Positions 21,895-23,408 of a stretch of 23,408 bases of DNA are shown here, in pieces. Within the stretch, counting starts at the first letter, position 1; every line of letters starts with the position of its first letter. A program made the translations under genes and the position numbers. Below the pieces are notes generated by a model, which worked only from the letters and a program-made list of their open reading frames with translations, was not told the DNA's origin and made no database searches. The stretch is from Alphaproteobacteria bacterium (GTDB lineage Bacteria; Pseudomonadota; Alphaproteobacteria; Sphingomonadales; Sphingomonadaceae). The DNA is taken from positions 1 through 23,408 of the forward strand of contig JAQGLD010000193.1 in assembly GCA_028293055.1 (NCBI GenBank). Direction: 5' to 3'.

Positions 21895-22641
21895 GTGAAC
21901 GCCCTTCCGGCGGAGACCGCCGTCTTCCTTTTGCTCTTCGCGCGCGTCGGCGGAGTGCTGATGATGCTCCCGGTCTTCTCGGACGAATCCGTGCCCGCGC
22001 AGATCAGATTGCTGATCGCGCTCGGCATGGCGCTCGGTCTGTGGGGGCTGCTCGGGCCGAAGATTCCGGTCAGCGCCCAGAACGCCCTCGTCTCTACCTT
22101 GATCGCCGAGATCATGGTCGGCCTAGCGATCGGCGCCATTGTCCGGATCATGTTCATGGCCGCGGTGATGGCCGGGGCGCTGATCAGCCTCAATATCGGC
22201 TTGTCCTCGGCCTTGGTCTTCGATCCCTCGCAAGGCGGACAGGTGCCGCTGCTGTCGAAGTTCATCGCGGTGGCGGCCGCCGTGGTCTGCCTTTCGCTCG
22301 GAGTCCATCACCTCTGGATCGGCGCGATCGTCAAATCCTACGACATGTTCCCGGTCGGCGGGCTCCCGCCGGCAGCCGACTTCGCGCAGCTCGCGATCCA
22401 CACCGTGACCCACGCCATGGCGCTTGCGCTGAGCCTTGCCGCGCCCCTGCTCGTCTACGGGATCGTGTTCAACGCCGCTCTCGGCCTGATGGCCCGGCTC
22501 GCTCCGGCGATCCAGATCTTCTTCATCGCGCAGCCGCTCAACCTGCTGCTCGGCCTCGCCATACTGGCCACCCTGTTCGGAACCATCCTCGCCGCGTTCA
22601 GCACCGAGATGGCCAATTTCATGCAGGCCGGGTGGAGCTGA
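21895..22641 (+). CDS. fliR: Flagellar type III export gate protein FliR
   Basis: This 248-residue protein has about six membrane segments and fits FliR, the single-copy subunit of the export gate. Landmarks include FLLLFARVGGVLMMLPVFSD (about 11-30), FDPSQGGQVPLLSKFIAV (about 103-120) and the C-terminal hydrophobic block ending in MANFMQAGW. It starts with GTG at 21895, 6 bases after the fliQ stop, preceded by a weak AGG-type ribosome site. Length is close to the usual 250-260 residues. Confidence 0.94.
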   Translation: MNALPAETAVFLLLFARVGGVLMMLPVFSDESVPAQIRLLIALGMALGLWGLLGPKIPVSAQNALVSTLIAEIMVGLAIGAIVRIMFMAAVMAGALISLNIGLSSALVFDPSQGGQVPLLSKFIAVAAAVVCLSLGVHHLWIGAIVKSYDMFPVGGLPPAADFAQLAIHTVTHAMALALSLAAPLLVYGIVFNAALGLMARLAPAIQIFFIAQPLNLLLGLAILATLFGTILAAFSTEMANFMQAGWS

Positions 22642-22644
22642 ACG

Positions 22645-23370
22645 ATGAGCGAGGGGCCAGACAAGGATCAGAAGACTCACGATCCTACCGACAAGAAGCT
22701 CGCCGACGCGCGCCAGAAGGGCGATGTCGCGCTGTCCAGCGAGATGCGCCACGCCGTGATGTTCGTCGGAATGCTGATGGTGGTCGGAACCATGGGCGCA
22801 TGGGCCTTTACCCGCCTGTCGCAGCTGATGATCGGAATGTGGGGCGGCGCCGCCGACCATGCCATCGATCCGCGCAACGCCCAGTCGCTCTTCACCGGGG
22901 TGGCGTCGAGCGTGGTGGTCGCGATGGGCCCGATGATGGCAACCCTCACCGGTCTCGCTCTACTCACCCTTTTCCTTCAGGGCCGGCCCAACCTTTCATG
23001 GTCCCGGGTCAAGCCGAATTTCAAGAAGCTCGCCCCCTGGTCGGGCCTGGCGCGGATGTTCGGGCCTCGCGCGTTCGTCGAATTCGCCAAGACGCTTGCC
23101 AAGTTCGGCGCGGTCGCGATCGTCTGCACCACCTTGCTCTGGCCCAAGGTCGCCGGCCTCGAGCGCCTCGTGGGCGCCGGCCCGCACGAGGTCGGACTGG
23201 TCGCCGGCAGCCTGATCCGCACGATGGTCAAGGCGGTGGCGATGCTCGCCGGAGCGATCGCGCTGTTCGACTTCATCTACCAGCGCCGCACCTATCTCGC
23301 CATGATGCTGTTGTCGCTCCAGGAGATTAAGGACGAGCACAAGCTGAGCGAGGGCGACCCCAAGATCTAG
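22645..23370 (+). CDS. flhB: Flagellar export switch FlhB, reading frame interrupted by TAG codons
   Basis: This frame gives 241 residues: a short cytoplasmic start (TDKKLADARQKGDVALSSEM, 15-34) and four membrane segments (about 36-55, 88-111, 152-166, 190-211). It ends with the family's QEIKDEHKLSEGDP block, then KI and TAG. FlhB interacts with the export gate and, through autocleavage at NPTH in its C-terminal domain, switches export from rod/hook to filament substrates. Complete FlhB is about 350-380 residues, so the cytoplasmic domain is missing from this frame. The stop falls exactly in the linker, and the same frame carries on with FlhB-like sequence after it. The membrane part is intact with no frameshift. 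Either the gene is broken or split, or the stops are read through or are sequence errors. Confidence 0.85.
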   Translation: MSEGPDKDQKTHDPTDKKLADARQKGDVALSSEMRHAVMFVGMLMVVGTMGAWAFTRLSQLMIGMWGGAADHAIDPRNAQSLFTGVASSVVVAMGPMMATLTGLALLTLFLQGRPNLSWSRVKPNFKKLAPWSGLARMFGPRAFVEFAKTLAKFGAVAIVCTTLLWPKVAGLERLVGAGPHEVGLVAGSLIRTMVKAVAMLAGAIALFDFIYQRRTYLAMMLLSLQEIKDEHKLSEGDPKI

Positions 23371-23408
23371 GGCTAGATTCGCCAGATCCAGGCGCAGCGT
23401 GCGCGCAA
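23368..23408 (+). other. In-frame continuation of flhB after two TAG codons
   Basis: In the flhB frame the codons are TAG (23368-23370), GGC, TAG (23374-23376), then ATT CGC CAG ATC CAG, and so on, reading IRQIQAQRAR to the window end. Normal FlhB proteins read EGDPK-[IV]-K-[AG]-[KR]-IRQ-x-x-x-x-RAR here. Each TAG therefore replaces an expected Lys or Arg codon, and a single A-to-T change turns AAG into TAG at each. There is no frame shift. Confidence 0.75.

Follow-up and report, generated by a model that had tools for sequence, protein, structure and literature searches.

The two in-frame TAG codons in the linker of the flhB gene described here very probably result from an error of sequencing or assembly where the contig ends, and the FlhB of the organism itself is most likely an ordinary one. 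We favour this explanation because the stops sit in an error-like patch of substitutions at the contig end, and because a near-identical gene is unbroken. The window, that is, the whole stretch of DNA analysed (23,408 nucleotides), is one entire contig (G000:C599), and its 3′ edge at position 23408 is an edge of the assembly. Its source genome, by its look a MAG, comprises 3.6 Mb in 644 contigs and is 82.3% complete and 4.4% contaminated; searches of this genome covered 141 contigs, of which 116 were readable and 25 masked (all under 3 kb). The original prediction had offered four explanations for the stops: sequence error is the one we favour, a pseudogene appears less likely, and no evidence came to light for a split FlhB or for local readthrough.

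Table 1. Features at the 3′ end of the window, with the evidence on which each is placed
Feature	Position	Strand	Basis
fliR, directly 5′ of flhB, without stops	21895..22641	+	TIGR01400, 185.3 bits (cut-off 168.6)
flhB, N-terminal membrane domain and start of linker	22645..23367	+	241 codons ahead of first TAG; PF01312, TIGR00328
Final 127 bases, corresponding to the terminal k-mer for an inferred k of 127	23282..23408	+	127-base dovetails elsewhere in the assembly
Patch with six differences from P0001 (residues 220, 222, 223, 234, 242, 244)	23302..23376	+	Protein comparison, fewest-step changes
Perfect inverted repeat (6+2+6) spanning both stops	23365..23378	+	Repeat search
First in-frame TAG, residue 242	23368..23370	+	Frame translation, comparison with P0001
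Second in-frame TAG, residue 244	23374..23376	+	Frame translation, comparison with P0001

Read from the ATG at 22645, the flhB frame runs to EGDPKI, then TAG-GGC-TAG, and continues as IRQIQAQRAR, with no other stop up to the contig end. Against PF01312 it matches at positions 2-241 of 335, the tool reading through both stops, and thus has the N-terminal membrane domain of the FlhB/SctU family; against TIGR00328 the match extends over positions 2-234 of 348 and scores 150.7 bits (whole-protein cut-off 349.25), the remainder of the profile being unmatched. Among named genomes the best FlhB matches are Sphingomonas species, at approximately 50-56% identity. As in Sphingomonas, the gene lies directly 3′ of fliR and has a similar membrane domain and EGDP linker, but this copy differs in the two stops that break the linker frame in the record, and its contig ends before the NPTH domain. 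Because the contig stops 32 bases past the second TAG, that domain is not visible in the window; the original prediction had missed that the window edge is the contig end. What had been predicted of the stops themselves was borne out: both follow EGDPKI in the linker, and they take the place of expected basic residues, since relatives have lysine at the first place in 86 and lysine or arginine at the third place in 86 of the 92 loci with a readable linker motif (three of these reads look like off-frame matches on the opposite strand). None of the 92 has a stop at either place; they derive from 110 related loci (L002-L111), the other 18 of which did not fit the motif. The tetranucleotide CTAG is scarce in this contig of 66% G+C, with 11 copies in positions 1-23408, one of them in fliR and two in the flhB stops.

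The strongest comparison is with the protein P0001 (NCBI name: MAG, flagellar biosynthetic protein FlhB, Alphaproteobacteria bacterium), which is encoded on a 3878-base contig. It is unbroken throughout its 358 amino acids, including the linker, has NPTH at residue 270, and scores 364.3 bits against TIGR00328, above the curated cut-off of 349.25. Before the first stop, 236 of 241 residues (98%) are identical between P0001 and the FlhB of the window. From the length of its contig, and because no second FlhB was found in the readable contigs of the window's own genome, we infer that P0001 stems from another assembly; it may come from another strain. The two were compared as protein, with silent sites outside the comparison.

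At this level the differences are distributed very unevenly, with one in residues 1-219 and six in residues 220-244. The latter consist of both stops and of four missense differences just 5′ of them, which the original prediction had overlooked. By fewest steps, all six base changes are to T on this strand, five from A and one from G, as would be expected of a one-directional error (P = 0.0014 with equally likely target bases). Six of the seven differences in residues 1-254 fall within 75 of 762 bases (P about 5.8e-6 under uniform scatter); these P values are rough, because the stretch was picked after looking. A comparison with relatives points the same way. At sites with at least 90% agreement among 56 relatives (of 61 loci, L002-L062, five of which failed the motif or open-frame filter), private changes in the window number three among the 37 callable sites of 23300-23380, each of them A to T, and four, of mixed kinds, among the 103 callable sites upstream of the patch. 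Near-identical DNA was found neither among plasmids nor in the 25 other genomes of the same genus, where the best match by score is only 71% identical over 1185 bases, so there is no DNA of the same species for comparison.

The window contains 17 inverted repeats of this type. The one across the stops is the sole exact copy found in the genome, which has one further place with a single mismatch. Template switching was considered as the source of this repeat and dropped, as the changes stand one in each arm and a single switch would copy arm onto arm. A diversity-generating retroelement was likewise dropped, since T is the target throughout and A is not the only source base.

The TAG codons would then be foreign to the organism's gene and, like the rest of the patch, would stem from wrong base calls in the final ~106 bases. 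In a short-read metagenome, an assembler running out of cover at a contig end would draw its final k-mer from one or a few error-rich reads, and one read could be all that supports such a dead-end terminal k-mer. An overlap of exactly 127 bases is shared by two other pairs of contigs in the assembly, as expected from a de Bruijn assembler with k = 127. With its first changed base 106 bases from the contig end, the patch would lie entirely within one terminal k-mer if k is 127, as these two dovetails suggest. A k-mer of this length requires reads longer than was usual on the Illumina GA. The short reads, the value of k, the small number of reads supporting the contig end and the error chemistry are the parts of this explanation that we infer. 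As to the last, G to T has been described as the most frequent substitution on the Illumina GA, with A to T climbing fastest towards read ends, and errors to T have been ascribed to accumulation of the T fluorophore (PMC3879328). The same paper did not observe this pattern on HiSeq (PMC3879328), and we therefore put forward T-error chemistry only as a suggestion. The patch resembles short-read T errors at a de Bruijn contig end in its A to T and G to T substitutions clustered near the end, but it differs in that the last bases look clean at the protein level and other contig ends have no T excess.

These two differences weigh against an artefact. Errors at read ends should grow towards the end, yet the residues after the patch, up to the contig end, agree with P0001. 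Over 280 contig ends of the assembly (50 of them from the 25 masked contigs and read as N) we found no excess of T pointing outward: when the last 120 bases were divided into six bins of 20, T accounted for 13.2-14.8% of all letters per bin, compared with 13.8% at 500-1000 bases from the end. The end of the window ranks 74th of 230 in T richness, and the patch itself is thus not unusually T-rich. In favour of an artefact, CTAG, which both flhB stops contain, is somewhat commoner in the last 60 bases of contigs (0.54 per kb) than at 500-1000 bases from the end (0.24), on a handful of counts in which the flhB stops are included. A strict test for stops in coding frames could assess 24 of 230 ends and flagged none, against 1 of 451 controls; the window's end was not assessable. 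The thresholds were loosened after this outcome, and the laxer version, which has little power, flagged 2 of 118 ends (of 230) versus 18 of 5004 interior controls, leaving the window's end unflagged. A local bad read fits better than a systematic fault.

Alternatively, the stops could belong to a real, recently broken flhB allele, a pseudogene carried by a strain or by part of the population in a lineage that is losing motility. The stops do stand in the record itself, and searches of 25 genomes of the genus gave no FlhB in six (of which two are less than 90% complete) and just a C-terminal FlhB fragment in a seventh, G012. In a decaying system other flagellar genes would be broken too, but FliP, FliR and FlgC, all on the same contig, are above their curated cut-offs, and no stops occur in what is visible of FlhA, which covers profile positions 127-655 of 657 before its contig ends, or in the visible N-terminal domain of flagellin. 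The flagellar system thus looks kept. Moreover, changes in a relaxed pseudogene would be of mixed kinds and spread over its full length, whereas here six changes, all to T, are packed into 75 bases at a contig end. Given that the cluster is one-directional and terminal, and that near-identical P0001 is intact, we regard a broken allele as unlikely. A real allele of another kind, in which a local purine-to-T process hit the 3′ part of flhB and broke or split FlhB at the linker in part of a flagellate population, is very unlikely.

The abrupt onset of differences close to the end would also suit a chimera, in which the assembler joined on a contig end from a related strain or a paralogue. Another strain would bring mixed and mostly silent changes, but the amino-acid changes here are all to T by fewest steps. 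Elsewhere in the readable contigs of the same genome, the final 80 bases of the window meet only chance-like matches (the best has 24 bases and E 0.13), and beyond these no other contig of the bin shares them as a branch point would require. A chimera is accordingly very improbable.

Slighter still is the chance of a split FlhB, in which the membrane part and the NPTH domain would be made as two polypeptides, the second from an internal start past the stops. Past the linker, at NPTH, FlhB normally undergoes self-cleavage, a cut that has been described as required for the switch (PMC7064499). Given this normal self-cleavage, and with the stops located in the linker, a two-chain form might not be absurd. 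Against it, the conserved linker continues past the stops in the same frame, near-identical P0001 is unsplit, and an internal start, which had been proposed as a check, is not seen in the remaining 32 bases, which hold no ATG, GTG or TTG. A second flhB, also proposed as a check, and a separate FlhB C-terminal piece were looked for as well, with no other match in the readable contigs of the genome.

Recoding of TAG as a sense codon, throughout the genome or locally, has a negligible probability, and we reject it because both FliP and FlgC terminate at TAG where their profiles end (the matches reach the last profile position, 197 in FliP and 137 in FlgC, each with TAG directly after). The original prediction had argued against recoding from TAG at the ends of korB, pgl, fliP and flgC; fliP and flgC carry that argument, but korB and pgl, although they end at TAG, have profile matches that stop short. 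In favour of recoding, RF1 (TIGR00019) was not found above its cut-off in the incomplete and partly masked genome, the sole match being G000:C370:5712-6719 (276.3 bits, 423.25 required), which looks like RF2 by its motif. RF1 may, on the other hand, lie in the unseen part, as 25 of 141 contigs are masked and the genome is 82% complete, and neither of the two tRNA genes detected by ARAGORN in 50 scanned contigs (of 116 readable) has the anticodon CUA.

Several observations on the FlhB family in relatives are recorded here in their own right. In a single-contig genome of the same family, the flhB match is broken in two at profile position 271, close to the NPTH site, as if by a frameshift (G032:C1:2609208-2610226). 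In 15 of 24 genomes of the same order (one below the cut-off) there is a short frame resembling the FlhB C-terminal domain (profile ~260-335), often ~3 kb from flhB and on the opposite strand; examples are G047:C265:9917-10135, G041:C33:44667-44882, G055:C222:4968-5186 and G042:C1:575837-576055. A second export system is suggested in four genomes of the same genus (G005, G015, G016 and G021), each with between two and four matches to the FlhB family. Among the 120 FlhB-like proteins listed, two (P0007 and P0108) are without the exact NPTH motif, and P0007 is also short, at 284 amino acids.

In conclusion, this case serves mainly as a warning: where paired stops are accompanied by clustered substitutions in one direction, no farther than a read length from a contig end, a biological reading would be premature. 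A sequence or assembly error remains our favoured explanation for the stops in this flhB. If a split or switched-off FlhB were nevertheless real, it would bear on how far a break in the linker is tolerated in export and in the hook-to-filament switch.
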